Below are positions 2,145 to 27,116 of a DNA stretch of 27,642 nucleotides, in pieces. Under the pieces are notes generated by a model. That model was given only the letters and a program-made list of their open reading frames with translations, made no database searches and was not told the origin of the DNA. This DNA is from a virus. Each line of letters begins with the position of its first letter. Position 1 is the stretch's first letter. The position numbers and the translations under genes were made by a program. The stretch covers positions 1-27,642 of the IMG/VR virus record IMGVR_UViG_3300022538_000565. The stretch is one strand, 5' to 3'.

Positions 2145-3131
2145 ATGAATGCAAAACAATTAAAAGAAGTATTGAGAAAAACAGTCAAAGCAGGACTGCC
2201 CGTGCTCGTTAAGGGAGCACCAGGAGTTGGCAAGAGCGACATTGTTGCTCAAGTAGCCAGAGAATTAAAAATGGATTTGATAATTTCTCATCCGGTGGTA
2301 AGCGACCCAACAGATTTCAAAGGCCTGCCAGGAATTGTAGATGGTGAAGCTGAGTTTCTGCCGTTCGGTGATTTAAGAAGACTTATTGATGCAAAAAAAC
2401 CAACAATTGCCTTTCTGGATGATTTAGGCCAAGCCCCCGCAGTAGTGCAAGCCGCAGCAATGCAATTGATTTTGGCTCGAAGAGTAAACGGCCACAAAAT
2501 CAGCAACAAGGTTATTTTCATTGCTGCCACAAATCGTCGCCAAGACAGAGCAGGTGTAACAGGAATACTCGAACCTGTAAAATCTCGATTCTCGACCATC
2601 ATTCAACTTGACCCAACAGCGGATGAATGGATTGAATGGGCATTTGAAAATGATATGCCTGCTGAACTTATTGGTTTTATCAACTTCAGACCAAATCTAC
2701 TTCACTCAGAAGAAGCAACAGCAGACATTGTCAATCATCCGTGTCCAAGAACAATAGCTTACTGCGGTTATCTCATCAAAGCTGGACTCGACGACATCGA
2801 AATATTGGCTGGAGCTGTAGGTGAAGGGTGTGCTATCGAATTGGTAGGCTTTATGGAAGTCTATAAAAGTCTGCCCAACATATCAGCAATACTCCTTGAC
2901 CCACAGAATGCAATCGTTCCAACCGAACCCGCTGCTCTTTATGCTGTTGTATCAGCATTAACTGAAAAAATAACAATGGACAATGCCAGCAGAATATTAA
3001 AGTATGGAAACCGTTTGCCTGCTGATTTTTCTGTATTATTGGTAAGGGATTCAATTCGTAAAGAACCCAAAATCCAAAACACCAAGGCATTCATCCGTTG
3101 GGCAACCCTTCACAAAGATGTTTTACTTTAA
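2145..3131 (+). CDS. MoxR-type AAA+ ATPase
   Basis: The 328-residue protein carries Walker A GAPGVGKS (24-31), Walker B IAFLDDL (88-94), sensor 1 AATN (127-130) and a likely arginine finger in VKSRF (145-149), an intact AAA_5/MoxR ATPase core. MoxR proteins are ATP-driven chaperones or remodelers that work with a partner containing a von Willebrand A domain. Such a partner is encoded downstream (3463-4695) with one small gene between. The start follows ATCGAAAGGATGGTAAA. The pair likely forms a complex on a phage or host protein, but the client is unknown. Confidence 0.88.
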   Translation: MNAKQLKEVLRKTVKAGLPVLVKGAPGVGKSDIVAQVARELKMDLIISHPVVSDPTDFKGLPGIVDGEAEFLPFGDLRRLIDAKKPTIAFLDDLGQAPAVVQAAAMQLILARRVNGHKISNKVIFIAATNRRQDRAGVTGILEPVKSRFSTIIQLDPTADEWIEWAFENDMPAELIGFINFRPNLLHSEEATADIVNHPCPRTIAYCGYLIKAGLDDIEILAGAVGEGCAIELVGFMEVYKSLPNISAILLDPQNAIVPTEPAALYAVVSALTEKITMDNASRILKYGNRLPADFSVLLVRDSIRKEPKIQNTKAFIRWATLHKDVLL

Positions 3132-3317: not shown

Positions 3318-3462
3318 CTTGATAAACAGCAAACCAAACTTGATAAACAGCAAAACGAAATTGACGAATGCCAAGAGAAAATTAAAACAGCAAGAAAATG
3401 GGCAAAAAAAAATCAAACTCCTATAATAACAGCCAAACAAAAAATCAGAAAGGATGGTTAAA

Positions 3463-4695
3463 ATGAATGCAGAACAGAAAATGCTCAAAGCAAGAACACT
3501 TCTGATTCTCGACCATCCATTCTTTGGATGCTTAGCTTTGAGATTAAAAATGTCAGAAACAAACGAACACCAAACTGCAATTACAGATGGAAAGAATCTA
3601 CTCTACAACCCTGCCTTCGTTGATAAACTTTCCAATCAAGAAACACTTGGATTCGTCGCCCACGAAGTTATGCACGCCGCATTAGGACATACTTGGCGTC
3701 AGGGAAATCGAAAAGCCAAAAAATGGAATATGGCAACGGACTACACAATCAATTCCAATCTACTGGAAGCCGGTTTCACATTACCTAACGGAGCCTTGAT
3801 TGACCACACCAATCTCTATGACAATATGTCTGCTGAGGAAATCTACAAAGCATTACCCGAATCTCAGCAAGAAAAGCAACAACAGCAACACAAACAGCCC
3901 TCACAGCAGAAAACCCAAGAGAACCAGCGACAGAAGCAGCAAAAGCAAACTAAGAAGCAGAAACAACAACAGAAACAACAACAAAAGAAAAAAGAGGAAA
4001 AGGAAATAAAAGATATTGACCCTGGACAATGTGGAGCAGTTGTTCCTGCAAAAGAAGAAACAACAACCAAAGCCAAAGCTGAATGGAAAGCTGCAATCAA
4101 TCAGGCCTTACAAATTTCAAGAGGCAAATTACCAGCATGTTTACAAAGGCAAATAACAGACATATTAGAAACCGTTGTACCCTGGCATATACTATTAAGA
4201 GACTTGGCAGAAAGGACAGCAAGGAACGATTACAGTTGGAGCAGACCGAATCCAAGGTATTTCTCAACAGGGGTAATTCTGCCTTCTCTAATCAGTGAAC
4301 AGCTTCCAGAGATTGCCATCGCAATCGACACCTCCTGCAGTATTAACAAAGAGCAGTTATCAACATTCGCTGCTGAAGCATCCGCAGTATTAGGAGCCTA
4401 TGATACAACAATAAGAGTTATTTACTGTGATGCTAAAATTCAGTCAGAGGAAATCTTTACAAGGATTGATTTACCATTGAAACTCAAATTGAAAGGTGGA
4501 GGTGGCACAAGATTTGCTCCAGTCTTTGAGCACATAGAGAGAAAAGGACATACTCCGTCTTGCCTGATTTACTTCACTGACCTCCGCGGAAGCTTCCCAA
4601 AAGAAGAACCAGAATATCCAACAATGTGGCTTGTACCCAAACCCAGAGATGAGCGTAAGAGAGAAGCACCGTTTGGACAAGTTGTAAATTTTTAA
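3463..4695 (+). CDS. MoxR partner: metallopeptidase-like plus VWA-like protein (DUF2201 type)
   Basis: The start at 3463 follows CAGAAAGGATGGTTAAA; an in-frame ATG at 3454 is part of that ribosome site. The 410-residue protein has an N-terminal zincin-like domain with HEVMHAALGH (67-76) and the conserved W..A.DYTIN segment (89-97). A Gln/Lys-rich low-complexity linker spans about 134-180. The C-terminal VWA-like domain has the MIDAS motif DTSCS (289-293), then GGGGTRF and an acidic loop. This architecture matches the putative metallopeptidase/VWA family commonly adjacent to MoxR ATPases. It probably acts with the ATPase at 2145 in ATP-driven remodeling or proteolysis. The linker length is unusual. 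Confidence 0.85.
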   Translation: MNAEQKMLKARTLLILDHPFFGCLALRLKMSETNEHQTAITDGKNLLYNPAFVDKLSNQETLGFVAHEVMHAALGHTWRQGNRKAKKWNMATDYTINSNLLEAGFTLPNGALIDHTNLYDNMSAEEIYKALPESQQEKQQQQHKQPSQQKTQENQRQKQQKQTKKQKQQQKQQQKKKEEKEIKDIDPGQCGAVVPAKEETTTKAKAEWKAAINQALQISRGKLPACLQRQITDILETVVPWHILLRDLAERTARNDYSWSRPNPRYFSTGVILPSLISEQLPEIAIAIDTSCSINKEQLSTFAAEASAVLGAYDTTIRVIYCDAKIQSEEIFTRIDLPLKLKLKGGGGTRFAPVFEHIERKGHTPSCLIYFTDLRGSFPKEEPEYPTMWLVPKPRDERKREAPFGQVVNF

Positions 4696-8838: not shown

Positions 8839-9180
8839 ATGATTACAGTGAATTATGGTATCACCCTAAGACTTAAAGGAAAAGGAAAAAGAAGAGTATC
8901 TGAAAATCATCAAGGACTTCAACTTGACCTCAAAGAAAATCAAAGCAAGAAAATCAGAGAGGAGATAAGAAAAAGACATCCAGGTTGGATTGTCGAAGGA
9001 TTTGCTATTGTGGATAATTTACTATCAGCTTGTAAAGCTCAACACAAAGCAATTGATATCTTGTTTGCCTTACTTATAGGAAAGGACAAAAAATTCTTCC
9101 CTATTAAAAGTGGTCAACCCTGGGAAGCTCTTCAACAAGGCAATCGAGCCATCAAGGATGCAGAAGCAAAAAATGACTAA
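8839..9180 (+). CDS. Hypothetical protein upstream of the helicase
   Basis: The 113-residue protein begins after ATCGAAAGGATAGAAA. It has a beta-rich start (MITVNYGITLRLKGKGKRR), a basic helix (KENQSKKIREEIRKRHPGW), and a more hydrophobic C-terminal segment (NLLSACKAQHKAIDILFALL). The last 8 bases overlap the SNF2-like helicase gene, suggesting translational coupling and a shared process. No family is recognised. Confidence 0.6.
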   Translation: MITVNYGITLRLKGKGKRRVSENHQGLQLDLKENQSKKIREEIRKRHPGWIVEGFAIVDNLLSACKAQHKAIDILFALLIGKDKKFFPIKSGQPWEALQQGNRAIKDAEAKND

Positions 9181-10528
9181 ACCAGAAAAACGTGACTATC
9201 AAGATAAAGCCCTTAGGAAAATAGAGCACTTCAAGGGACGTGCTCTACTTGCCTACGAGATGCGAACGGGGAAAACCTTTATCGCCTTGCAATGGTTAAA
9301 GAATAATCCAAAGATAGAACCTGCTGTTGTAATCTGTCCTGAAATAGGAAAGCTGTACTGGGAAGAAAAAGCTCTAAGATATTTTGGAATAAGAAGCACA
9401 GTGTTGAATGGAGAAAATCCCCCCAAAAGGAAATTCATACACAAGAATCGACTTTACATACTCAATTGGAAAATACTTCAATATTGGGTTGAGTTTTTAC
9501 AAAGAGCAGGTGTGGTAGCTTCTATATTAGATGAAGTTCATTATATCAAGGAATCCAAAACCTTATGCTATAAAGCAACAAAAAAATTAGTAAGAAAATT
9601 ACCATATCTCCTTGCATTAGGAGGGACGCCACTTAAAAGCAGGCCAAAAGAACTCTTCAATATTCTAAATTTAATAAGACCTGATAAATATCCATCTATC
9701 GTAAAATATCGCTGGAGATACTGTAAACCAAAATACAGACCTTGGGGTTGGAATTATGATGGAGCAGACCATTTAGATGAACTTCATAGAAATATGAATA
9801 CCTGGTGCATGGTTCGGGAACTGAGGAAAGATGTAATGGGTGATTTACCCAAGAACAGACATATTGTACCCATTAATATATCAAGCAGAAGTGAATATGA
9901 TGAAGCTGAAAACAATTTCATTATATGGCTTCGCAGACGTTCTGCCACACGAGCACACAAAGCAAAGAAGGCAGAGCGATTGGTACAGATGGGATACCTG
10001 AGGAGACTTGCAGCATCATTAAAAATGCCAAGTGCCTTAAAATGGATAGACAGATGGTTGGAAAAGAAAGATGGACAGCTTGCCATTTTTGCCATACATA
10101 AAGACATTATCTCTCAGCTTCATACTCACTACAGAGGAATATGTGTTGTAGTTGATGGTACTATTAGAGGTAAAAAACGACATTTAGCCGTTAAGGCTTT
10201 TCAAAACAAGCAATATAGAATATTCATTGGACAATCACAAGCAGCTGGTACAGTCATTGAATTATCAAATGCAAAAGCTGCAATTGGGCTTGAGCTTGAT
10301 TGGACTCCAGGTGGAGTAACCCAATGGGAAGATAGAATATTTGACCCAAACTCAGACAAACCTATGCGTATATATTACCTTGTTGCAAAGAATACCATTG
10401 AACACCACCTTTGCGAAATACTGCAATCAAAGCAAAATATAATATCCAAGATATTAGACGGCAGTAAAAAGAAAAATCAATTAAATGTATTTGACTTATT
10501 AGAAAAAGCATTATTGAAAGGAAAATAA
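9173..10528 (+). CDS. SNF2-type superfamily 2 helicase
   Basis: From the ATG at 9173 the protein has 451 residues. It shows Walker A AYEMRTGKT (27-35), DEVH (120-123), motif III GGTP (150-153) and motifs V/VI around GTVIELSNA and TQWEDRIFDP, the SNF2/SMARCAL1-like translocase set. The start at 9173 is preferred to 9158 or 9110 because the upstream gene ends at 9180; 9158 remains possible. Such phage helicases are thought to act in DNA repair, replication restart or recombination. Near the C-terminus, residues 436-440 read QLNVF, a close match to the bacterial sliding-clamp binding consensus QLxLF. Confidence 0.88.
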   Translation: MTKPEKRDYQDKALRKIEHFKGRALLAYEMRTGKTFIALQWLKNNPKIEPAVVICPEIGKLYWEEKALRYFGIRSTVLNGENPPKRKFIHKNRLYILNWKILQYWVEFLQRAGVVASILDEVHYIKESKTLCYKATKKLVRKLPYLLALGGTPLKSRPKELFNILNLIRPDKYPSIVKYRWRYCKPKYRPWGWNYDGADHLDELHRNMNTWCMVRELRKDVMGDLPKNRHIVPINISSRSEYDEAENNFIIWLRRRSATRAHKAKKAERLVQMGYLRRLAASLKMPSALKWIDRWLEKKDGQLAIFAIHKDIISQLHTHYRGICVVVDGTIRGKKRHLAVKAFQNKQYRIFIGQSQAAGTVIELSNAKAAIGLELDWTPGGVTQWEDRIFDPNSDKPMRIYYLVAKNTIEHHLCEILQSKQNIISKILDGSKKKNQLNVFDLLEKALLKGK

Positions 10529-12118: not shown

Positions 12119-12959
12119 TATTCCTACAGCACCAGAAGGACATCACCATTCACGTCCTGATTGGATAAATCTGGATTGTCCCTACTGCGGACGTGATAGC
12201 CAGAAATGGCATTTAGGATATTCAATAGAAAACAACTTTTTCAACTGTTGGAGGTGCGGAACACATCAACTTATCAATACCTTAATGGAAATAACACATC
12301 TACCATATTACCAAATCAAGAAACTGGTATCTGATTTAGAACCTTCATTCATCAAAAGAGAAAAGCCAACAGGCAAATTAATAATGCCAAGTGGTACTAA
12401 ACATTTATCCTCCGTTCACAAAAAATATCTACATAGCAGAGGATTCAATTGGAGAGAGATACAACGTATTTGGCAAATAAAAGGAATTGGCATAGCCCCC
12501 AGACTACAATGGCGTATATTTATTCCTATTATCTACCATTCACAAGTTGTCAGTTGGACAACACGCTCAATTTCTAAAAGGGAGAATGTAACCAGACATA
12601 TATCGGCCAGTGAGGAAGAGGAATCAATGCCTCATCACGAACTATTGTATGGTGAGGATTATGCACGACATGCAGTAATCGTAACTGAAGGGGTATTTGA
12701 TGTTTGGAGAATCGGAGTAGGTGCTGTTTGCACTTTCAGTACAGGATATTCACAAGAGCAAATAGAACGAATCGTAAAATATCCAATCAGAGCAATATGT
12801 TTCGACAACCAACCAGAGGCTCAGAAACGGGCAAGGAGATTGGTTGACGATTTATCCGTATTCCCAGGCGATACTTTCAATGTAGTATTGGATGCGAAGG
12901 ACGCTGCTGAGGAAAGTGGGGAAAATATAAAAAGATTAAGAAAGGAGATTTTAGAATGA
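12087..12959 (+). CDS. DnaG-type primase (CHC2 zinc finger plus TOPRIM)
   Basis: The 290-residue protein has an N-terminal zinc-binding domain with CPYC (31-34), H42 and CWRC (54-57), and a TOPRIM domain with VIVTEGVFDVW (197-207; Glu201) and ICFDNQPEAQKRAR (237-250; Asp240). It is shorter than cellular DnaG and lacks a DnaB-binding C-terminus, as in many phage primases. The second position of the usual DxD is Gln242 instead of Asp. It synthesises RNA primers on the lagging strand and probably works with the DnaB-like helicase at 16346. Its end overlaps the NADAR gene by 4 bp. Confidence 0.85.
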   Translation: MKFQDILSQLNIPTAPEGHHHSRPDWINLDCPYCGRDSQKWHLGYSIENNFFNCWRCGTHQLINTLMEITHLPYYQIKKLVSDLEPSFIKREKPTGKLIMPSGTKHLSSVHKKYLHSRGFNWREIQRIWQIKGIGIAPRLQWRIFIPIIYHSQVVSWTTRSISKRENVTRHISASEEEESMPHHELLYGEDYARHAVIVTEGVFDVWRIGVGAVCTFSTGYSQEQIERIVKYPIRAICFDNQPEAQKRARRLVDDLSVFPGDTFNVVLDAKDAAEESGENIKRLRKEILE

Positions 12960-13399
12960 ATATGATAAAAGCATTCGTAGACAAATATCGCTTCTTGAGT
13001 AATTTCTTTCCCAGTCCTATTATTTGGAATGGACAAAGATGGGAGACTGCAGAACATTTGTATCAAGCCATGAAAACGGTAAACAAAAATGATAGGGAAC
13101 TGATAAGATTAGCATCCACACCAGGCAAAACCAAAAAATTAGGACAACAAGTTGAACTCCGGTCAGACTGGGAAAATGCCAAACATCGAACAATGAAGGA
13201 AATACTTGAACTAAAATTCAAACAGAATCCTGAATTGGCTCAGAAACTTATCAACACCAAGGGTATGATTTTAGAAGAAGGAAACTTCTGGCATGACAAT
13301 TACTGGGGAATTTGCAGATGCAAAAGGTGCAAACATAAAACAAGGCAAAACCATCTCGGACTATTATTAATGGAATTGAGAAAGGAGATTTCAAAATGA
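12956..13399 (+). CDS. NADAR-domain (YbiA/RibX-like) ADP-ribose-related hydrolase
   Basis: The 147-residue protein spans the full NADAR (DUF1768) fold: FLSNFFPSPI (13-22), WETAEHLYQAMK (29-40), a central KKLG...R.DW segment (about 55-72) and the C-terminal FWHDNYWGICRCKRC, which includes extra Cys residues. NADAR enzymes remove ADP-ribose from guanine in nucleic acids or act on ADP-ribose metabolites, and can neutralise DarT-type toxins. A phage copy may reverse host-inflicted ADP-ribosylation. It starts at an ATGA overlap with primase after AAAGGAGATTTTAGA and overlaps the next gene the same way. Confidence 0.88.
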   Translation: MNMIKAFVDKYRFLSNFFPSPIIWNGQRWETAEHLYQAMKTVNKNDRELIRLASTPGKTKKLGQQVELRSDWENAKHRTMKEILELKFKQNPELAQKLINTKGMILEEGNFWHDNYWGICRCKRCKHKTRQNHLGLLLMELRKEISK

Positions 13400-15713: not shown

Positions 15714-16349
15714 ATGAAAAAAGTGAATAAAAAGTCCAAAATAAGAAGAATTGATATAATAAAGAAATTGCCAAACAAAAAATACAACATTATTTATGCT
15801 GACCCACCTTGGGATTTTAGAGACATGAAAGGAACTTCATTTGGGATAGGAAAACAATATCCTACTCTCAAAGATAAAGAACTTGCAGCATTACCAATTA
15901 AGAACATAACTACCAAAGACTGCATTTTGTTTATGTGGACAACGCACGCTCATATAGAATCAGCCATAAAAATTGCCAAATGTTGGGGATTCAAATATAT
16001 TACTATCGGATTTGAGTGGTTTAAATCCCTTAAGATGGACAAACCTGTATGTATGATAGGTCACTGGACAACAGGTGGGGCTATCGAGCTTTGTTTGTTA
16101 TTTAAGAAAGGTCATCCAAAGAGAATCTGCAAAACAGTACCAAGATTGGTATTCCAACGGCGTACAGAACACAGTCATAAGCCAGAGGAAGTTAGAAAAA
16201 GGATAATTCAGCTTATGGGCGATTTACCACGTATAGAATTATTTGCAAGAGAACATATACAAGGTTGGGATGTTTGGGGAAATGAGGCTCCCGATGAGAT
16301 AACTGGATTTGTTTATAAAAAACATATGAATCGACCAACATTATTATGA
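15714..16349 (+). CDS. MT-A70-type adenine methyltransferase
   Basis: The 211-residue protein contains ADPPWDF (29-35), the catalytic DPPW of the MT-A70 family, and GHWTTGGAIELCLLF plus EHSHKPEEVRKRI further on, as in phage DNA N6-adenine methyltransferases of this type. It probably modifies phage DNA to resist restriction; RNA methylation is possible in the wider family. Residues 207-211 at the extreme C-terminus are RPTLL, similar to the RPTLF end of the radical SAM protein. The start has no clear Shine-Dalgarno sequence. Its stop overlaps the DnaB-like gene by ATGA. Confidence 0.85.
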   Translation: MKKVNKKSKIRRIDIIKKLPNKKYNIIYADPPWDFRDMKGTSFGIGKQYPTLKDKELAALPIKNITTKDCILFMWTTHAHIESAIKIAKCWGFKYITIGFEWFKSLKMDKPVCMIGHWTTGGAIELCLLFKKGHPKRICKTVPRLVFQRRTEHSHKPEEVRKRIIQLMGDLPRIELFAREHIQGWDVWGNEAPDEITGFVYKKHMNRPTLL

Positions 16350-17743
16350 GAATAAATAAGAAAAACAGTGACCAGGAAAGACGGATACTTATTGGGATGA
16401 TTGTTGACCCAATTGTACTTGGTCGGATTGCCTCCAAATGGCAACACCGAATGTTCAAATCCAAATGGGCAAATATAGTAGCTAAATGGTGCCTGAGTTA
16501 TTATAAAAGATATGATAAAGCACCAATGAAACATATTGAAGGTTTGTTTGAAACCTGGTCTGCCAAGACCAAAGATAAAAGTACAATAAATTTAGTAGAT
16601 AAATTCTTGAGTTCATTAAACGAAGAATACGAGGAATTGGGAGAGGAAAGCAATAGTGATTATATAATCGATATTGCTGGTTCTTATTTTAATCAAGTAA
16701 GGATTGAAAGGTTGATTGAATCAGTTGAATCCGATATTACCGAAGGTAGGACAAATGAAGCTCACGGTCGCCTGATTGGATACAATAAAGTTGACATGGG
16801 GGTGGGCGAAGGAATTGATATACTACAAAATGAGGAGGCTATTAGGGAGGCATTTGCGGATAAAGGAGAATCGCTAATTGAATTTCCAGGCGCACTTGGA
16901 CAGTTTTTCAAAGGTGCATTAGAACGTGAAGGCTTTGTTGCCTTTATGGGTAAGAAGGCAGTAGGTAAATCATTTTGGTTGCAAGAAATGGCTTACCAGG
17001 GAATGCTACAACGGAGGAAAGTGGCATTCTTTGAGATTGGTGATATGGGTCAAAACCAGACGATGAGACGATTAATGTCTCGTGTTACCAGACATCCCCG
17101 CAAGGCTTGTGTAATAGAATATCCAACAAAACTTAAGAGGAACAAAAGGAGAAGGAAAATAATTAGAGATTGGGATGAAAAAGAATTCAAGAGAAATTTA
17201 AGTTGGAGGAGAGCAAGAAAGGCTTGCAAGAAATTGATGGAAAAAAGAATAAAAAGCAAGGATTCATATTTCAAACTCTCCTGCCATTTTAATTCAACTC
17301 TTAGTGTCAACGGAATCCAAAGTATTTTACAAGATTGGGAGAGGGAAGAAGGATGGATTCCAGATATGATAGTGATTGATTACGCCGATATCTTGAATAT
17401 GGAGTATCCTGGAATGGAAGGCCGTGATACAATAGACAAGACATGGAAGCAATTACGGGCATTATCTCAAAGACAACATTGTTTGTTAATGACAGCCACC
17501 CAATCTGATGCAGCATCTTATGATAGAGAGACAATGAAAATGAAAAATTTTACGGATGACAGACGTAAGATTGATTCTGTTACCGGAATGATAGGAATAA
17601 ACCAAACGCTGGATGAAAAGAGGAAAGGATTGATGCGGTTGAATTGGATATCACTGCGGGATGATGGATTCTTTGCCTTGGATGTCGTTTATGTCTACGG
17701 ATGCTTGGCTGTGGCAAATCCAGCTGTTAAATCTTGCTTTTAG
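16346..17743 (+). CDS. DnaB-like replicative helicase
   Basis: The 465-residue protein has an N-terminal helical domain and a RecA-like core with Walker A GKKAVGKS (201-208), Walker B MIVIDYADIL and an ATQSD segment, as in DnaB/gp4-type helicases (DnaB_C family). The Walker A is atypical; the usual pattern is GxPGxGKT/S. A basic insertion (KLKRNKRRRKIIRDWDEKEF) interrupts the core between Walker A and B. It unwinds DNA at the fork and should partner with the primase at 12087. The start overlaps the MT-A70 stop. Confidence 0.82.
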   Translation: MRINKKNSDQERRILIGMIVDPIVLGRIASKWQHRMFKSKWANIVAKWCLSYYKRYDKAPMKHIEGLFETWSAKTKDKSTINLVDKFLSSLNEEYEELGEESNSDYIIDIAGSYFNQVRIERLIESVESDITEGRTNEAHGRLIGYNKVDMGVGEGIDILQNEEAIREAFADKGESLIEFPGALGQFFKGALEREGFVAFMGKKAVGKSFWLQEMAYQGMLQRRKVAFFEIGDMGQNQTMRRLMSRVTRHPRKACVIEYPTKLKRNKRRRKIIRDWDEKEFKRNLSWRRARKACKKLMEKRIKSKDSYFKLSCHFNSTLSVNGIQSILQDWEREEGWIPDMIVIDYADILNMEYPGMEGRDTIDKTWKQLRALSQRQHCLLMTATQSDAASYDRETMKMKNFTDDRRKIDSVTGMIGINQTLDEKRKGLMRLNWISLRDDGFFALDVVYVYGCLAVANPAVKSCF

Positions 17744-17753
17744 GAGAATGAAA

Positions 17754-18236
17754 ATGATTAAATTTATTAGTGGTAATATGTTTGACATTCCTGTTGATAT
17801 ACGTATAAATACAGTAAATTGCGTGGGTGTGATGGGAATTGGTGTTGCATTGGCTTTCAAAAGGCGTTTTCCTGAAATGTTCAAATCTTATAGGATATTA
17901 TGTAAAAATAAAATTGTGCAACCCGGTGAGCCGTATTGCTATCTTTATAAAAAGCTCACTATAATAAATTTCCCAACTAAAGACCATTGGCGTAATCCAT
18001 CAGAGTATGAATATATTGAATCGGGATTAGAATGGCTTGCAAAATATCTAAAAGACCGTGGAGCTGTAAAAGTTACTTTACCAGCATTAGGTTGTGGGCA
18101 CGGAGGATTAGATTGGAATAAAGTGAAGTCATTGATAAGAAAACATCTTAGTAGACTTGAGGCTATTATCTATGTTTTTGAGCCATCCAGTTCAAGAAAT
18201 ATGAAAAATATTCACAAAAATCCAAAAAAGATGTAG
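17754..18236 (+). CDS. Macrodomain ADP-ribose hydrolase (DarG/TARG1-like)
   Basis: The ATG at 17754 follows TAGGAGAATGAAA; upstream in-frame starts lie inside the helicase gene. The 160-residue protein is a single macrodomain: ISGNMFDIPVDIRINTVNCV (5-24), GVMGIGVALAFKRRFPEMF (25-43) and LPALGCGHGGLDW, closest in pattern to DarG and TARG1, which remove ADP-ribose from DNA or proteins. The C-terminal DarT-binding region of DarG is absent. It likely reverses ADP-ribosylation of phage DNA by a host DarT toxin. Confidence 0.85.
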   Translation: MIKFISGNMFDIPVDIRINTVNCVGVMGIGVALAFKRRFPEMFKSYRILCKNKIVQPGEPYCYLYKKLTIINFPTKDHWRNPSEYEYIESGLEWLAKYLKDRGAVKVTLPALGCGHGGLDWNKVKSLIRKHLSRLEAIIYVFEPSSSRNMKNIHKNPKKM

Positions 18237-19999: not shown

Positions 20000-20956
20000 A
20001 TGAAAATATTATTGGTTGATATTGATAGTATAATTCCGAATGTGGCTTTACAAAAACTTCAATTTTATTATGAACAAAAAGGAAATAAAGTCATTCAAAT
20101 AAAAGATAGTTCACTTTTACCACTTTTTATAGACAGCTATGATAAAATTTATGTATCTTGCATTTTTACTTATAATAAGCATTTCTGTAAAAAATGGAAA
20201 GGTCTTGCAGAGATTGGAGGTAGTGGTTATAATGTATCAAAGAAATTGCCAATGAAAATAGAAAAAGTCAAACCAAGAAAAAATATAGGCTTTACTACAA
20301 GAGGATGTATAAGAAATTGCTCTTGGTGCATTGTACAACAAAAGGAAGGCAAATGTCGGGTGATTGGTGATATATATGATATTTGGGATGGAAAAGCAAA
20401 AATTATCACACTCTTGGATAATAATATACTTGGATTACCAAGACAATTTTTCAAGATTAGCAAACAAATTAAAAAAGAAAAGCTCAAAGTGGATTTTAAT
20501 TCAGGGTTTGACCATCGGCTTTTAACAGAAAAAATTTGGAAAGAGATAATAAGTCTTTCTCATTGGGCAGATTGGGGGGGTTCAGTAGAAGGTTCATCAT
20601 CAAAAATTAGATTCGCTTTCGATGACATTCTATATAAAAAATCAGTAAAGAGAGCATTAAGAATAATGCAGAAAAATGGATTGAAAGATTGGCAAACAAG
20701 ATGGTATGTTTACGTAGGAATAAAAGATACTACAGAAACTGTTTTGGAAAGGATAAACATTCTGCGTAATGCTGGACAGTTGGTGTTTTTGATGAGAGAT
20801 AGGGATAAGAAAGTACAAGATAATTTGGAGTTTATGAAGATATATATTTGGACTTCTCATATAGCCTTGTTTTCCAAAGAAACTTATGAATCCTCTGCAA
20901 CGAAATCTTATTTTTCTAAACAAGAAATTTATGGTAATAGACCAACTTTATTTTGA
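20000..20956 (+). CDS. Radical SAM protein
   Basis: The 318-residue protein has an N-terminal Rossmann-like segment (KILLVDIDSIIP) typical of B12-binding-type radical SAM proteins and the [4Fe-4S] motif RGCIRNCSWC (Cys103, Cys107, Cys110). The rest fits a partial TIM-barrel. Such enzymes carry out radical chemistry on nucleic acids, cofactors or proteins; the phage substrate is unknown. The last residues (314-318) are RPTLF, almost the same as the MT-A70 end. No ribosome site is visible before the ATG, and a hairpin precedes it. Confidence 0.82.
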   Translation: MKILLVDIDSIIPNVALQKLQFYYEQKGNKVIQIKDSSLLPLFIDSYDKIYVSCIFTYNKHFCKKWKGLAEIGGSGYNVSKKLPMKIEKVKPRKNIGFTTRGCIRNCSWCIVQQKEGKCRVIGDIYDIWDGKAKIITLLDNNILGLPRQFFKISKQIKKEKLKVDFNSGFDHRLLTEKIWKEIISLSHWADWGGSVEGSSSKIRFAFDDILYKKSVKRALRIMQKNGLKDWQTRWYVYVGIKDTTETVLERINILRNAGQLVFLMRDRDKKVQDNLEFMKIYIWTSHIALFSKETYESSATKSYFSKQEIYGNRPTLF

Positions 20957-20978: not shown

Positions 20979-22013
20979 ATGAGAATCAACCGTGAAGAAT
21001 TATTAAGACAATTAGAAGCAACATTACCAGGCTTATCAACCAGAGAAATTATAGAGCAATCATCCTGCTTTATTTTCAAAGACAAAGCAATTCGTACATA
21101 CAATGATGAAATAGCCTGTACCCAAAAGTCTATCTTGGATATTGAAGGGGCAGTACAAGCTATACCACTTATTTCTATCCTTCGCAAATTACAAGAAGAT
21201 GAATTGGAAATAAATGTCAATGACAGACATATCCAGCTTCTCATCAAAGGCAAACACAAACGGTCAGGTATTCGGATGGAACAAGACATTACACTTCCTA
21301 TTGAAACAGTTGAAAGGCCAAAGAAATGGAAAAAATTACCATCCAATTTTGCTGATGCAGTTTCAATTGTTCAACCTTGTGCTGGTAGTAATGAGGCCCA
21401 GTTTGTTATGACTTGCATACATATTTGTCCTAAATGGATGGAAGCCTGTGATAATCACCAAATGACTCGATTCAGAATAAAGACTGACATATCCGAACCT
21501 GTATTGATAAGAAAAGAATCATTAAAGCATATTGTATCACTGGATATGACAAAATTTAGTGAGACAAAACATTGGATTCACTTTGGAAATTCCACAGGTT
21601 TAATTCTTAGCTGTCGCCATTTCGTAGAGGATTATCCTATGGAAGATATAACAAAAGTTTTGAAAGGATTTGAAGGCAAACCCTTAACTTTGCCAAAAGG
21701 TTTGAAGGAAGCTATTGAGAAAGCGGAAATATTTTCATCTGAAAATGTTGAAGGTAGTGATATTATTATTGACCTTAAACCAACCAAATTCAAAATTACA
21801 GGCAAAGGAGCTTCAGGCTGGTTTACCGAAATCAAGAAATCAAAATATAGAGGTGAACCTTTACAATTTACTATACCAGCAAAATTATTGATAGAATTGG
21901 TAAGGCAGTATAGCAAATGTGAAGTATCATCTACTCGTTTGAAAGTTACTGGTGAGAAATTTGTCTATATAACTGTTCTGGGGATAATAGAGGAAGCTGA
22001 GGAAGAAGATTGA
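20979..22013 (+). CDS. DNA polymerase III beta-type sliding clamp
   Basis: The 344-residue protein starts after ATAAGGAGAAATAAAAA. Its pattern matches a bacterial-type beta clamp: an N-terminal CFIFKDKAIRTYNDEIACT, later repeated clamp-fold units, and the C-terminal FTIPAKLLIELVRQYSKCEV...KVTGEKFVYITVLG. The length (about 366 in cellular DnaN) is close. It would tether the split polymerase at 25018 and other proteins carrying clamp-binding peptides. Residue identity to cellular clamps seems low, so this rests on pattern rather than strong motif. Confidence 0.7.
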   Translation: MRINREELLRQLEATLPGLSTREIIEQSSCFIFKDKAIRTYNDEIACTQKSILDIEGAVQAIPLISILRKLQEDELEINVNDRHIQLLIKGKHKRSGIRMEQDITLPIETVERPKKWKKLPSNFADAVSIVQPCAGSNEAQFVMTCIHICPKWMEACDNHQMTRFRIKTDISEPVLIRKESLKHIVSLDMTKFSETKHWIHFGNSTGLILSCRHFVEDYPMEDITKVLKGFEGKPLTLPKGLKEAIEKAEIFSSENVEGSDIIIDLKPTKFKITGKGASGWFTEIKKSKYRGEPLQFTIPAKLLIELVRQYSKCEVSSTRLKVTGEKFVYITVLGIIEEAEEED

Positions 22014-22237
22014 TTCTACCAATAAACGAAATAATAGGGATAATTGCAACAATCTTTGCTGTAATAGGTGTTATAACAAATAACAGACGTCTTAGAATAT
22101 GTTTTCTATTATGGTTGTTATCAAACGCACTTTCTGGAATTATTCACGTTCACGCTGGAATTTGGAGCCTTTTAATTAGAGATATTATTTTCTTTGTTTT
22201 GGCAATAGAAGGTTGGTTCAAATGGGGACATAAATGA
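22010..22237 (+). CDS. Small multi-TM membrane protein (possible PnuC-like half)
   Basis: The 75-residue protein starts at a TTG that overlaps the clamp stop (ATTGA), with GAGGAAGA upstream; no in-frame ATG is available. It has about three hydrophobic segments (IIGIIATIFAVIGVI; ICFLLWLLSNALSG; LLIRDIIFFVLAIEGWF). The short IEGWFKWG end resembles the W..W pattern of PnuC nicotinamide riboside transporters, but the protein is far too short for a full one. The link to NAD metabolism is only a hint. Confidence 0.5.
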   Translation: MILPINEIIGIIATIFAVIGVITNNRRLRICFLLWLLSNALSGIIHVHAGIWSLLIRDIIFFVLAIEGWFKWGHK

Positions 22238-22317
22238 AATTGCCAATAAATAAAATCGTCTGCGGAGATTGCTTAGAATTTATGAAAGACTGGCCTGATA
22301 ATTGTATAGATTTGGTA
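22234..22317 (+). repeat. Direct repeat L1 (methyltransferase 5' end)
   Basis: The first 84 bp of this methyltransferase gene match 26406-26489 at 74 of 84 positions, without gaps. With L2 (22891-23058) it forms direct repeats about 4.2 kb apart, flanking the UDG-exonuclease, HNH and polymerase genes. Recombination between them could delete that block or swap methyltransferase cores. Confidence 0.8.
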
Positions 22318-23073
22318 GTTACAAGTCCACCTTATGGGGATTTACGAGATTATCGAGGTTTTGTTTTTAATTCTGAAAAAATAGCAAGGGAGTTATTTAG
22401 AATTATTGCAAATGGTGGTGTGGTTGTATGGGTAGTCGGTGATAAAGTTGAGAAAGGTTCTGAAAGCGGAATTAGTTTTCAACAAGCATTGTATTTCAAG
22501 TCGGTTGGTTTTTGTCTTTATGATACGATGATATATCAGAAAGATGGTGCACCATATCCAAGTCAAAGACGTTATATGCAGGAATTTGAATATATGTTTA
22601 TTTTTTCAAAAAATGTACCTAAAACGTTTAATCCTTTGAAAGTAAGAAGCATATGGTATGGTGTTAAAAAGGGTTCGACATATCGACAAAAGGAAGGGGG
22701 AACAAAAAGAAAATCTATAAATATAAACGAATACAAAATAATTGGGAATATTTGGAAAATACCTTGTGGATATATGAAAGGAAGTAAAGATATTATAACC
22801 TTTGAACATCCAGCAAGCTTTCCAGATAAACTTGCTATTGACCATATTGTGAGTTGGAGTAACAAAAATGATATTGTTCTCGACCCAATGTGTGGTTCGG
22901 GAACAACTTGTGTAGCTGCCAAAATGTTAGTTCGTAAATATATTGGCATAGATATATCTAAAAAATACTGTGAGATTTCAAGAAAAAGATTGAAAGGTGT
23001 GAGACCAAGTTTATTTGAAAAGCCAAAGAAGAAGAAAATAAGAGCTTCATTTGGATTGATAAAAAAGAAATGA
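22234..23073 (+). CDS. Beta-class DNA methyltransferase (SPPY type)
   Basis: The 279-residue protein has motif IV TSPPYG (30-35) near the N-terminus and motif I DPMCGSGTT (217-225) near the C-terminus, the beta-class order; SPPY is typical of N4-cytosine methylation but N6-adenine is possible. The middle (residues about 60-200) would hold the target-recognition region. The N- and C-terminal ends are nearly the same as those of the methyltransferase at 26406. Residues 257-261 are RPSLF. It likely protects phage DNA. The start overlaps the previous stop by ATGA. Confidence 0.85.
   Translation: MKLPINKIVCGDCLEFMKDWPDNCIDLVVTSPPYGDLRDYRGFVFNSEKIARELFRIIANGGVVVWVVGDKVEKGSESGISFQQALYFKSVGFCLYDTMIYQKDGAPYPSQRRYMQEFEYMFIFSKNVPKTFNPLKVRSIWYGVKKGSTYRQKEGGTKRKSININEYKIIGNIWKIPCGYMKGSKDIITFEHPASFPDKLAIDHIVSWSNKNDIVLDPMCGSGTTCVAAKMLVRKYIGIDISKKYCEISRKRLKGVRPSLFEKPKKKKIRASFGLIKKK
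22891..23058 (+). repeat. Direct repeat L2 (methyltransferase 3' end)
   Basis: This stretch, from the GSGTT motif to SFGL, matches 26903-27071 closely, including the run encoding RKRLKGVRPSLFEKPKK, with a small indel in the AAG tract. The intervening gene cores do not match. Confidence 0.75.
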
Positions 23074-24296
23074 CTAAAGGATTTTTCACATCTTCGAGAA
23101 TACAAAGCAAACAGAAGATTGGGCAAATAGCTCACTGTGGTCTGTGTGGTTTATATAAGCATTGTAAATCACCAAAAATGCCTCCGACTGGTGAAGGGCA
23201 AATGAAAATATTGATGGTTGCAGAAGCACCAGGAAAATGGGAGGATAAAAAGAACACACAATTAATAGGCAGGATTGGACAAGACTTTAGGAAAAAACAT
23301 TTGAAGCCATTAGGTATTGATTTGGATTTGGATTGTATCAAGACCAATGCCATCATCTGCCGTCCTCTGAATAACAAAAAACCTGACGATAATATGATAG
23401 AGGCCTGCCGTCCTAATCTAATGAAAACCATAAAAGAATGTGACCCCAATGTAATTGTACTTTTAGGCGAAGTTGCCTGTAAATCTTTGTTACCAATATT
23501 ATGGAAAAAGGATATAGGTGCAATTAGTCGGTGGGCAGGTTTTTGCATTCCCTGTACTAATCCAAACGCTTGGATAATCCCAACCTTTCATCCATCATAT
23601 ATAAGTCGAAGAGGAAAGGATAAGATTTTAGATAGGATTTATAAAAAACATTTGAAACTTGCAATTAGAAAATCAAAAAACAAACCTTGGACAGAAATTC
23701 CTGATTACAAAAAACAGATTGAAATTATTACCAGACCATCTCAAGCAGCAAAAATAATTAGAGAATTTACAAAAAAGGGTGGAGCAATAGCCGTTGACTT
23801 TGAATGTAATTGTCTAAAACCAGAAGGAGAAGGAACCGAAATTGTAAGTTGTGCTCTTTGTTGGAGAGGCAAGAGAACGATTTCATATCCCTGGGAAGGT
23901 TCTGCTATCGAAGCTACCGATGAATTACTCAAATCTCCGATGCCTAAGATAGCCAGCAATCTAAATATGGAGAATAGATGGTCACAAGCAAAATTGGGAC
24001 ATCGAATTAGGAATTGGTTATTAGATACTATGTTGGCGGCACACTTTTTGGATAACCGTCCAGGTATTACAGGTATTAAATTTCAATCATTTGTTAATTT
24101 AGGAATGCCCTGCTATAATGAACATATAGAACCATTCTTAAAATCAACAAAAAAGAATAGATTCAATCGGATACAAGATTTGGATTTGGAAAGCCTATTA
24201 GAATATGGGGGTTTTGATTCCTACTCCGAATATTGGGTGGGAATGAAACAGATGAAATTAATAAGGGAAAGAGATGTTTTAGATATTAAAAATTGA
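23070..24296 (+). CDS. UDG-like domain fused to DNA polymerase A-type 3'-5' exonuclease
   Basis: The 408-residue protein starts at an ATGA overlap. The N-terminal domain is a family-4-like uracil-DNA glycosylase: CGLCGLYKHC (23-32), EAPGKW (52-57), VIVLLGEVACKSLL and FHPSYI. The C-terminal domain is the proofreading exonuclease of family A polymerases: AVDFECN (DxE), ASNLNMENRW and YGGFDSYSEYW. It ends exactly where the polymerase domain would begin in an unsplit enzyme, and that domain is encoded separately at 25018. A UDG-like N-terminal domain is also known in some phage polymerases. Confidence 0.8.
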   Translation: MTKGFFTSSRIQSKQKIGQIAHCGLCGLYKHCKSPKMPPTGEGQMKILMVAEAPGKWEDKKNTQLIGRIGQDFRKKHLKPLGIDLDLDCIKTNAIICRPLNNKKPDDNMIEACRPNLMKTIKECDPNVIVLLGEVACKSLLPILWKKDIGAISRWAGFCIPCTNPNAWIIPTFHPSYISRRGKDKILDRIYKKHLKLAIRKSKNKPWTEIPDYKKQIEIITRPSQAAKIIREFTKKGGAIAVDFECNCLKPEGEGTEIVSCALCWRGKRTISYPWEGSAIEATDELLKSPMPKIASNLNMENRWSQAKLGHRIRNWLLDTMLAAHFLDNRPGITGIKFQSFVNLGMPCYNEHIEPFLKSTKKNRFNRIQDLDLESLLEYGGFDSYSEYWVGMKQMKLIRERDVLDIKN

Positions 24297-24313
24297 AGCT
24301 AATAGGAGAAATA

Positions 24314-24514
24314 ATGTTTTGTATGCGATGTCAAAATGATTTATCACAATGTACTTGTCCAGATATGAATGAGAGATTAGAAGCCGCAGCAGCAACAGGA
24401 TATTTTGCTTATAAAAAATGTACTAAATGTGGCAAGCATTACGATTTATGTAAATGCGAAAATCCTCAATGGGCAATACAAGATGGAAACTTAAAGAGAA
24501 AGCAAGAAAATTAA
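24314..24514 (+). CDS. Small zinc-finger-like protein
   Basis: The ATG at 24314 is chosen because AATAGGAGAAATA precedes it. The 66-residue protein has CMRCQNDLSQCTC at the N-terminus and CTKCGKHYDLCKC later, two CxxC..CxC clusters with the same spacing, so a duplicated zinc site. It is the first of three small genes in the gap between the exonuclease and polymerase genes. No family is recognised. Confidence 0.6.
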   Translation: MFCMRCQNDLSQCTCPDMNERLEAAAATGYFAYKKCTKCGKHYDLCKCENPQWAIQDGNLKRKQEN

Positions 24515-24732
24515 GAGAAGCTGCCATAGCCAAAGCCAAAGAAAGAGGGAAAGAGATGTTAGATACTAAGACTGTAGAAGAACGTATAGAGAATGCAAGA
24601 ACAACTCTAAGGCATTTATCCAAGAAGAAAGAAGAAAGAATTACGATATCCAGAAAATTAGTAATGGGATATTGTAATGATTCAATAATGCTTTATGAAG
24701 TGATACTTGTATTGTTAAAAGGGAAAAAATGA
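24469..24732 (+). CDS. Hypothetical helical protein (start uncertain)
   Basis: The frame is open from 24454; likely starts are ATG 24454, 24469 or 24556 (the last has AGAGGGAAAGAG upstream). From 24469 it encodes 87 residues, mainly basic helical (KLKEKARKLREAAIAKAKER). It overlaps the previous gene by 46 bp if the early starts are used, which favours 24556 or a shifted boundary. No family is recognised. Confidence 0.45.
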   Translation: MGNTRWKLKEKARKLREAAIAKAKERGKEMLDTKTVEERIENARTTLRHLSKKKEERITISRKLVMGYCNDSIMLYEVILVLLKGKK

Positions 24733-25046
24733 AAATTCTTAAAGTACAAGGTGTTGATGTTCTCCTTGATGATTGGAATTGGCTTCGTCTATGCAGGTAT
24801 AAATGGAGAATTAAAAATAATGGCAAAGACCATAAAAGCATTGCTCGAACTTATCAAAAGAAGGGTATTCATTACACAGTTTATATGGCCAGGGAAATAA
24901 TGAACACTCCTGAGAATATGGAATGCCATCATAAGAACGGAAATACTTTTAATAACCAAACTGAAAATCTCGAAAATCTTAGCAAGCAAGAACATATGAA
25001 AAAAGATAGGGAAAGAATTGAGACCAATAATCAACCAGGCTTATAG
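24729..25046 (+). CDS. HNH homing-type endonuclease
   Basis: The 105-residue protein starts at ATGA overlap after TAAAAGGGAAAA. It has a small N-terminal domain (KILKVQGVDVLLDDWNWLRL) and the HNH catalytic core with ECHHKNGNTFNNQTENLENL (70-89; His72/His73, Asn75, and the final Asn). Free-standing HNH nucleases often sit in or next to polymerase genes. Its end overlaps the polymerase gene by 29 bp. It probably entered between the exonuclease and polymerase halves, but whether it cleaves the unsplit gene is unknown. Confidence 0.8.
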   Translation: MKILKVQGVDVLLDDWNWLRLCRYKWRIKNNGKDHKSIARTYQKKGIHYTVYMAREIMNTPENMECHHKNGNTFNNQTENLENLSKQEHMKKDRERIETNNQPGL

Positions 25047-26403
25047 ATTATTACACAATGGGTGTATTGCTCTATCCCAGGTCGAAGCAAACGGGATAAG
25101 AATGGATGTTGATTATTTGAAAGAATCCATCCGTAGCACAGGCCTTCAAATCAAAAAACTATCAAGCAAACTTAAAGACCATAAGATATATAAAACTTGG
25201 AGAAGAGAATATGGTTCCAGAACTAATTTAGGAAGTAGGGAACAATTAGGAAAAATACTTTTCGATATAATGAAATATCCTTGCTCATTTCCTCCTACTG
25301 AAACCGGAAGACCAAAGGCAGATGAAGCGGCTTTGAATTCAACAGGTTTGAAATTTGTTGAACGTTATCTAAAAATGGAAAAATTAAAGAAAGCCAGAAG
25401 TACCTATTTGCAAGGCTTCCTACGGGAGACAACAGATGGTTTTCTCCATCCAAACTTCCCTCTTCATTTAGTTCAAACCTATCGTGGAAGCAGCAGCAGT
25501 CCAAACTTCACAAATATAATCAAAAAGAATCCTGAACTTGCAAAATTAATTAGGAGGGCTTTTATAGCTCGTAAAAATCACCAAATTATTGAAACCGATT
25601 TCAAAGGAATAGAAGTTTGCTGTGGTACCTGTTATCATAAAGACCCACAGATGATTAAATATATAAAAAACCCTTCAAAGGATATGCACCGTGATGCAGC
25701 CTGTGATTGTTATATGATAAAAAAGAATCAGGTCTCGTGGGATGCACGAGACACTGGAAAAAATATGTTTATATTCCCCCAGTTTTATGGCGATTGGCAT
25801 AAACATTGTGCCAAAAGTATGTGGAATGCTATTATTGAGAGAAATATAAGAACAACGGATGGATTGAATCTTATCAAACATCTTGAGCGAAAAGGTATTA
25901 CGAGATTAGGTAACTGTGACCCAGATGAAGAACCAGAGGAAGGAACTTTTGAAAGACATATCCAAAAAGTAGAATACATTTTTTGGAATAAAAAATTCAA
26001 AGTTTATAATCAATGGAAGAAGGATTGGTGGGAACAATACCTCGAATTGGGTTGGTTCAAAACATTAACTGGATTTGTAATTGAGGGAGATTTGAATAGG
26101 AAGCAAGTAATAAATTATCCGGTACAAGGTTCAGCCTTCCATTGGTTATTATGGTCACTGATACGAATTCAAAAGATAATGACAAAACACAAAATGAAAT
26201 CTCTTATTGTAGGACAGATTCACGATAGTATAATTGGGGATATTCACAAAAAGGAGAGAAAAGACTATTTAGAAATTGTCAAACAAGTTATTTATGAGGA
26301 TATTAGGAAGCATTGGAAGTGGATTATCGTTCCGCTAACCGTTGAAGTCGGAGTTGCTCCGGTGGGTAGCAGTTGGTATGATACAAAGGAAATTGAAGTA
26401 TAA
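25018..26403 (+). CDS. Family A DNA polymerase, polymerase domain (split gene)
   Basis: The 461-residue protein starts at TTG 25018 with AGGGAAAGAA just upstream; upstream frame is closed by a stop at 24997. Motif A is IETDFKGIEV (191-200, Asp194), motif B has R244, K248 and Y257-G, and motif C is GQIHDSIIG (399-407, Asp403). The canonical QIE and HDE are KGIE and HDS, so finger and metal-site residues vary. There is no exonuclease domain here; it is on the separate protein at 23070. Together they would form one functional polymerase. Confidence 0.85.
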   Translation: MRPIINQAYRLLHNGCIALSQVEANGIRMDVDYLKESIRSTGLQIKKLSSKLKDHKIYKTWRREYGSRTNLGSREQLGKILFDIMKYPCSFPPTETGRPKADEAALNSTGLKFVERYLKMEKLKKARSTYLQGFLRETTDGFLHPNFPLHLVQTYRGSSSSPNFTNIIKKNPELAKLIRRAFIARKNHQIIETDFKGIEVCCGTCYHKDPQMIKYIKNPSKDMHRDAACDCYMIKKNQVSWDARDTGKNMFIFPQFYGDWHKHCAKSMWNAIIERNIRTTDGLNLIKHLERKGITRLGNCDPDEEPEEGTFERHIQKVEYIFWNKKFKVYNQWKKDWWEQYLELGWFKTLTGFVIEGDLNRKQVINYPVQGSAFHWLLWSLIRIQKIMTKHKMKSLIVGQIHDSIIGDIHKKERKDYLEIVKQVIYEDIRKHWKWIIVPLTVEVGVAPVGSSWYDTKEIEV

Positions 26404-26405
26404 GA

Positions 26406-26489
26406 ATGAAACTGCCAGTAAATAAAATCATCTGCGGAGATTGCTTAAAGGTTATGAAGGACTGGCCTGATAACTGTGTGGATTTGGTA
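26406..26489 (+). repeat. Direct repeat R1 (methyltransferase 5' end)
   Basis: Partner of 22234-22317, with 74 of 84 bases matching. See the two-copy analysis under repeat L1. Confidence 0.8.
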
Positions 26490-27116
26490 CTGACTGATCC
26501 ACCTTATGGCGTTGATATGGATTATGATATTTATAAGGATACAGAACAAAACTGGTTTGATATGTTTGTGGATGTTGTGCCCAAAATGAATCGAATAGGG
26601 CGTATGACTATATTGCCATCTTGCCAAATTAACCGTCTGAATTGGATATATAGAACATTGCCTCCAGATTGGCTTATTTGTTGGTACAAAGGTAGTACGG
26701 GATGCTCGAGCTATATTGGGTTCAATGATTGGGAGCCTCTTCTCGTTTACGGCAGAACTAAAAATCAATTATATATGCATGATTTTTTTCAATGCCCACC
26801 AACAGATTTTAGTAATGGACATCCTTGTCCTAAACCTATTGGTTGGGCATTATGGTTAATTGAGCGAGCATCTAACCCTAATGATATTATCATTGACCCT
26901 TTCTGCGGCTCAGGCACTACTTGTGTAGCCGCCAAGATATTAGACCGTAGATATATTGGCATAGACATATCCGAGAAATACTGTGAGATAGCAAGAAAAA
27001 GATTGAAAGGTGTTAGACCAAGTTTGTTTGAAAAACCAAAGAAGAAAATAAAGAGAGCTTCATTTGGATTGTCAATTAAGAAGTGTAAAAGGAGACTGAA
27101 GTATGATTCTAAATAG
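26406..27116 (+). CDS. Beta-class DNA methyltransferase (DPPY type)
   Basis: The 236-residue protein has motif IV TDPPYG (30-35; typical of N6-adenine) and a C-terminal motif I DPFCGSGTT, the same order as the 22234 enzyme. Its first 28 residues and last 60 match that enzyme closely, but the middle is different and shorter. Residues 204-208 are RPSLF. The C-terminus extends past the shared part with KKCKRRLKYDSK. It likely has a different specificity and adds to phage DNA protection. Confidence 0.85.
   Translation: MKLPVNKIICGDCLKVMKDWPDNCVDLVLTDPPYGVDMDYDIYKDTEQNWFDMFVDVVPKMNRIGRMTILPSCQINRLNWIYRTLPPDWLICWYKGSTGCSSYIGFNDWEPLLVYGRTKNQLYMHDFFQCPPTDFSNGHPCPKPIGWALWLIERASNPNDIIIDPFCGSGTTCVAAKILDRRYIGIDISEKYCEIARKRLKGVRPSLFEKPKKKIKRASFGLSIKKCKRRLKYDSK
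26903..27071 (+). repeat. Direct repeat R2 (methyltransferase 3' end)
   Basis: Partner of 22891-23058. The match runs from the GSGTT motif to SFGL, with a small indel in the AAG tract. Confidence 0.75.

Follow-up and report, generated by a model that had tools for sequence, protein, structure and literature searches.

Common ends and different cores in a pair of apparently modular orphan methyltransferases of an uncultivated phage

How do two methyltransferase genes of one phage come to match closely at both ends and hardly at all in between? The question is raised by a 27.6 kb uncultivated virus record (27,642 nucleotides; "the window" hereafter means this whole stretch of analysed DNA), which carries two N6/N4 methyltransferase-family genes, M1 and M2, in direct orientation (Table 1). 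Both score above the PF01555 gathering score of 26.7 bits (143.5 bits for M1 and 96.7 bits for M2), and in both the motifs run from motif IV (S/DPPY) through the target recognition region to motif I (DPxCGSGT). This is the order of the beta-class enzymes. The structure nearest to an AlphaFold model of M1 is a DNA cytosine-N4 methyltransferase, followed by CcrM and MboIIA. Judged by precedent in the N-methyltransferase family, SPPY points to m4C and DPPY to m6A; m4C is probably the product of M1, and m6A probably that of M2.

The explanation favoured here, to which a probability of roughly 0.8 is given, is that M1 and M2 are modular orphan methyltransferases in which resident ends have recombined with different cores, the tail being kept as a putative clamp tether. 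The resident ends would consist of the N-terminal motif IV arm, the C-terminal AdoMet-pocket arm and a lineage-specific tail, and the cores would carry the target-recognition part together with motifs V-VIII.

Table 1. Positions in the window of M1, M2, their segments and the other genes discussed
Feature	Position	Strand	Description	Evidence
M1	22234..23073	+	Beta-class N6/N4 DNA methyltransferase, 279 aa, motif IV SPPY	PF01555 E 1e-41, phrog_67
M1 N-end	22234..22337	+	Motif IV arm, common to M2	89/104 identical; pS 0.34
M1 core	22336..22881	+	Motifs V-VIII and target recognition; core family 0	Nearest cores L151, L103, L038
M1 C-end	22867..23073	+	Motif I arm and tail A (RLKGVRPSLFEKPKKKKIRASFGLIKKK)	170/206 identical to M2
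M2	26406..27116	+	Beta-class N6/N4 DNA methyltransferase, 236 aa, motif IV DPPY	PF01555 E 3e-27, phrog_67
M2 N-end	26406..26509	+	Common to M1	BLASTN alignment
M2 core	26508..26894	+	Core family 2	109/129 aa (84%) identical to L004 core
M2 C-end	26880..27085	+	Motif I arm and tail A (RLKGVRPSLFEKPKKKIKRASFGL)	Alignment to M1
PnuC-like	22010..22237	+	Small membrane protein, directly upstream of M1	PF04973
UDG-exonuclease	23070..24296	+	UDG and 3'-5' exonuclease protein, part of polymerase block	PF03167, PF01612
Polymerase	25018..26403	+	Family A polymerase domain, separate gene	PF00476
Sliding clamp	20979..22013	+	DnaN-like, proposed partner of tail A	phrog_947; TIGR00663 weak
MT-A70	15714..16349	+	Methyltransferase ending ...NRPTLL, slot upstream of helicase	PF05063
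Radical-SAM-like	20000..20956	+	Protein ending ...NRPTLF, motif kept in relatives	PF04055 weak
Helicase	9110..10528	+	SNF2-type, QLNVF near C-end (RLSIF in relatives)	PF00176

As the initial annotation had it, M1 and M2 are direct repeats around the UDG-exonuclease, HNH and family A polymerase genes; their spacing is 4172/4013 bp. The polymerase itself is split (23070-26403) into a UDG and exonuclease gene followed by a polymerase-domain gene, and relatives keep both the split and the order. The HNH endonuclease ORF (24729-25046) overlaps the start of the polymerase gene; homing by this gene was considered and rejected, the HNH gene adjoining neither methyltransferase in the window. The PnuC-like gene (22010-22237) has a parallel in L032, where pnuC likewise lies beside a methyltransferase, and it occurs in one phage together with NADAR (12956-13399) and Macro-domain (17661-18236) genes, a combination that suggests NAD or ADP-ribose metabolism and possibly a counter-defence role. 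Elsewhere in the window, a gene for a DUF2201 putative metallopeptidase/VWA protein (3454-4695) adjoins an AAA ATPase gene (2145-3131).

The similarity that gave rise to the question is sharply partitioned. BLASTN aligns a start block with 89/104 identical positions (86%, E 4e-31) and an end block with 170/206 (83%, E 3e-58), within which the previously noted count of 74/84 for the first 84 bp holds good and the last 168 bp of M1 match at 143/168. The middles differ in sequence and motif IV as well as in length (182 aa in M1, 129 aa in M2), differences that had also been noted, and the cores can be aligned only with large gaps, at 32/116 residues (28%). Expressed as nucleotide identity for N-end, core, C-end and tail, the series is 85, 41, 83 and 83%. 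The longest exact run common to both genes is 22 nt, the repeat stops inside M2, which continues for about 10 further codons, and the flanks beyond the two ORFs have no match between the copies. Duplication during assembly was ruled out, since the flanks differ and synonymous divergence stands at 0.43.

Some likeness of the ends is to be expected, motif IV lying close to the beginning of beta-class methyltransferases and motif I close to their end, and part of it is due to purifying selection on ends that hold the catalytic motifs. M1 and M2 might thus be ordinary beta-class paralogs, their ends kept by selection while the target-recognition middle diverged fast. All beta-class enzymes have the same motif order, amino acid identity between the ends of unrelated members of the family averages 42-51%, and the N-end consensus is found elsewhere on many cores, with synonymous sites near saturation. 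The M1-M2 ends, at 83-85% nucleotide identity, nevertheless lie far above the family baseline. When other members of both core families were cross-compared, N-ends averaged 52% (374 pairs), C-ends 53% (374 pairs) and tails 44% (105 pairs), and the 85, 83 and 83% of M1-M2 were reached by 0, 1 and 0 pairs, respectively. Synonymous sites of the M1-M2 N-ends differ by 34%, as against 57-90% in all other pairs tested, most N-end pairs outside M1-M2 being near saturation; the C-ends differ by 48%, and the ends overall have a pS of 0.43. The similarity of the M1-M2 ends exceeds both chance and ordinary enzyme conservation.

Cores and tails also have different partners. The M2 core is 84% identical (109/129 aa) to that of L004, a phage contig with almost nothing else in common with the window, and the L004 tail is unrelated: L004 ends RLEAVDTGVPVKEQKQGQQPLF, and M2 ends RLKGVRPSLFEKPKKK...SFGL, like M1. 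From N-end to tail, M2 and L004 are 81, 82, 78 and 43% identical at the nucleotide level, and M1 and L038 are 81, 59, 66 and 32% identical. The nearest relatives of the M1 core (L151, L103 and L038) reach 53-57%, and all three bear other tails. Paralogs diverging in the ordinary way would not be expected to have a non-catalytic tail in common at 83% nucleotide identity while orthologs of their cores bear unrelated ones; with uniformly diverged paralogs looked for in relatives and not found, we consider ordinary paralogy very improbable.

The conflict between cores and ends was judged by a triplet test and by core/tail tables, the segments being short. In M2, residues 35-163 favour L004 over M1 by 140:17, and residues 203 onward favour M1 over L004 by 32:3 (permutation P < 0.0005), with the best break at residue 196. 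In M1, the N-end favours M2 by 25:5 over L151 and by 30:8 over L103, the core favours L151 and L103 over M2, and the stretch past motif I leans to M2, giving breaks on either side of the core. These results support different histories for the cores and the ends of M1 and M2. In the wider methyltransferase set, two tail types are each present on core families 0, 2 and 3; counts of common ends with different cores are biased upwards because the sets were fetched partly with end-derived patterns, so the frequencies are not unbiased, and the existence of each combination stands.

The same mosaics could arise in another manner, namely by entry of whole methyltransferase genes whose C-end, and sometimes N-end, is then overwritten by the resident copy through gene conversion, the core staying where it is. 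M2 fits this sequence of events closely, matching L004 in N-end, core and C arm and parting from it only in the tail, beyond the best break; the synonymous divergence of the M1-M2 N-ends, the lowest found (pS 0.34), and the gain and loss of whole genes at clean junctions described below are likewise in keeping with it. It accounts less readily for M1, where the core is bounded by breaks on both sides, and it is in effect the same modularity viewed from the other side. The data fit either incoming cores joining resident ends or incoming genes with ends overwritten by resident copies; for M2, replacement of the tail accounts for the data no less well than replacement of the core and is slightly simpler. 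Taken for the pair as a whole, tail grafting with gene conversion is a substantial but minority possibility. Regardless of the route, the outcome would be a set of enzymes that are alike at the ends and probably differ in target, which could serve against host restriction of various kinds.

The tail common to M1 and M2 is here called tail A (RLKGVRPxLFE...SFGL). When 2.9 million viral contigs were scanned for the exact pattern RL[KR]GVRPx[LI]FE, only four were recovered, all from this phage group and all having replication genes in common with the window group, two of them being 99.8% identical. Tail A sits on five different cores, those of M1, M2, L010, L014 and L017, and in L079 a methyltransferase of 1098 aa ends in a looser form of it, so that tail-A genes number only five or six, all on metagenomic contigs. 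The L079 gene (L079:1150-4446) lies upstream of a helicase gene and has an intein-like insert in its core.

Relatives show that these genes come and go. In L010, the nearest relative (clamp 89% and helicase 85% identical), the clamp-methyltransferase-UDG order is kept, and the methyltransferase in the slot that separates clamp from UDG-exonuclease combines M1-like ends with a third core, 23% identical to that of M1. After residue 97, the L010 UDG-exonuclease gene (L010:8871-10667) is interrupted in frame by an insert of about 340 aa whose ends are intein-like. The tail-A gene of L014 and L017 is placed elsewhere, behind the clamp-loader gene. L014 and L061 are 99.4% identical over 4301 bp, and the methyltransferase gene is absent from L061 at exactly that place; L056 (96.8%) also lacks it, and many relatives have empty slots. 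In L077:1533-3823 and L166:95-2424, the occupant of the clamp/UDG-exonuclease slot is a helicase-like gene, with a different methyltransferase as its partner. Methyltransferases of the M1/M2 type thus occur in at least four slots, and their gain or loss involves whole genes with clean junctions.

The placement of M1 and M2 around the polymerase block, to which the initial annotation had attached meaning, seems incidental in light of these slots and of whole-gene gain and loss; the flanking positions probably represent no more than two insertion slots out of four or more. Nor did the relatives compared include one with a hybrid methyltransferase or a deleted polymerase block, the rearrangements that direct repeats had been thought to risk. 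Such deletions should be rare and non-viable, as exact identity today is at most 22 nt and the polymerase would be lost as a consequence. A related possibility is that one methyltransferase was duplicated across the polymerase block and one core was later replaced. The direct orientation agrees with this, as does a pS for the M1-M2 ends slightly below the 0.50-0.61 of flanking genes compared between the window and L010; tail-A genes in other slots of other relatives and the lack of duplicated flanks outside the ORFs argue the other way, and duplication is rather unlikely. With regard to cultured phage, a DNA-level search of an annotated phage collection gave short, weak matches only and protein searches only relatives below 60%, so that this collection contains no close cultured relative of the window. 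Bacterial genomes scanned for the polymerase gave no match.

Why a tail should be kept on changing cores may be explained by the sliding clamp. The product of the clamp gene of the window has a predicted DnaN-like fold (AlphaFold pLDDT 85; Foldseek to DnaN 6man, E 2e-22), residues 260-279 of M1 are predicted to be disordered, and tail A holds RPSLF, which resembles a sliding-clamp-binding motif. RPSLF departs from the canonical Q-phi-x-[L/M]-[F/L] in lacking the first-position Gln; a natural clamp ligand without Gln exists, the AMSLF of delta (PMC11139829). Four window ORFs (M1, M2, MT-A70 and radical SAM) have RPx[LI][FL] within their final 45 residues, against 0.08 expected from shuffles, and a broader pattern, picked post hoc and counted over orthologs that are not independent, occurs in 15/276 C-ends across the phage group against 2.8 expected. 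Other tail types of the methyltransferase family have Q..[LM]F in 18/88 cases against 0.5 in shuffles. Canonical tails in the wider family include QLALF and QMALF, and a structure among the matches listed, 4k3p, shows QLALF in complex with the E. coli clamp. No clamp relative was seen near Q-type tails in the surrounding stretches, which are partial.

A clamp-docking role for tail A is plausible from these motifs. More tentatively, and as something less likely than not, it may be proposed that this phage group grafts a clamp-docking RPxLF-type tail onto any methyltransferase core it acquires and gives its MT-A70, radical-SAM and helicase proteins that docking code as well, making specificities plug-in modules of the replisome, and that in other phages a canonical Q-x-x-L-F tail takes this part, perhaps with the host clamp as its target. 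If the tail does dock on the clamp, self-marking of DNA would be linked to the replication fork, and uncultured phages could be searched for clamp partners by a simple sequence rule.

Core exchange between conserved ends, as the initial annotation had proposed, is well supported by the mosaic triplet signals, by one tail on five cores, by a different core in the corresponding slot of L010 and by presence or absence of whole genes. The part of the proposal that made the ends DNA recombination handles is less secure: breakpoints in conserved catalytic segments favour it, exact identity of no more than 22 nt today does not, and protein-level selection on the ends weighs against a pure handle reading. 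Under core exchange, the M2 core would derive from a lineage common with the L004 gene and the M1 core from a widespread SPPY family, each brought in by homologous recombination through the conserved arms. Specificity would be exchanged with the core, and a new core would change the methylated base and target, allowing evasion of varied host restriction systems; the tail would be retained because it would hold the enzymes at the sliding clamp that the phage itself encodes, where they could methylate new DNA as it is replicated. Natural sequences here point to phage orphan methyltransferases evolving as interchangeable cores between fixed ends, potentially a one-step route to new methylation marks, with presence and absence of such a gene documented between 99.4% identical phages.

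Several known systems invite comparison. As in Type I HsdS shuffling, recognition parts appear to be recombined between duplicated genes; unlike HsdS, M1 and M2 are direct rather than inverted copies, and each is a complete methyltransferase. Integrase-driven inversion was ruled out, the copies being direct and a PF00589 profile search finding no phage integrase in the window. Bacillus phage C5 methyltransferases of the SPR type are multispecific, with serial target recognition domains in one protein; they too are phage orphan enzymes with modular target recognition, whereas M1 and M2 are N-methyltransferases with one core each. General modular mosaicism within phage proteins has been described as fragment shuffling (PMC10684548), in a main text that makes no mention of methyltransferases. 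Beta-clamp-binding proteins with QLxLF (PMC11139829, PMC9690074) likewise place a short hydrophobic motif in a disordered C-tail, with Gln-Leu where tail A has Arg-Pro. An incomplete literature search found no paper on core exchange, or on a clamp motif, in small phage orphan methyltransferases.

The closest parallel is Type III modA of Neisseria and Haemophilus, in which conserved 5' and 3' regions (DPPY and the AdoMet motif) flank an exchanged variable recognition centre (PMC3311624). No Res subunit gene lies beside M1 or M2, whose neighbours are pnuC, UDG-exo, HNH, polA and a hypothetical gene; the SNF2/ResIII-like helicase gene at 9110 is 12 kb away and is kept in relatives without a methyltransferase in slots 1-2. 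Phase variation by repeats was also ruled out, tandem arrays near M1 and M2 being short (2-3 copies). M1 and M2 further differ from Mod in being much smaller, phage-encoded, present in several slots per genome and provided with a lineage-specific C-tail, and in that the exchanged piece would be everything that lies between motifs IV and I. The two genes thus stand outside the Type III Mod system and resemble it at the level of gene evolution, as conserved ends around a variable recognition core exchanged by recombination.
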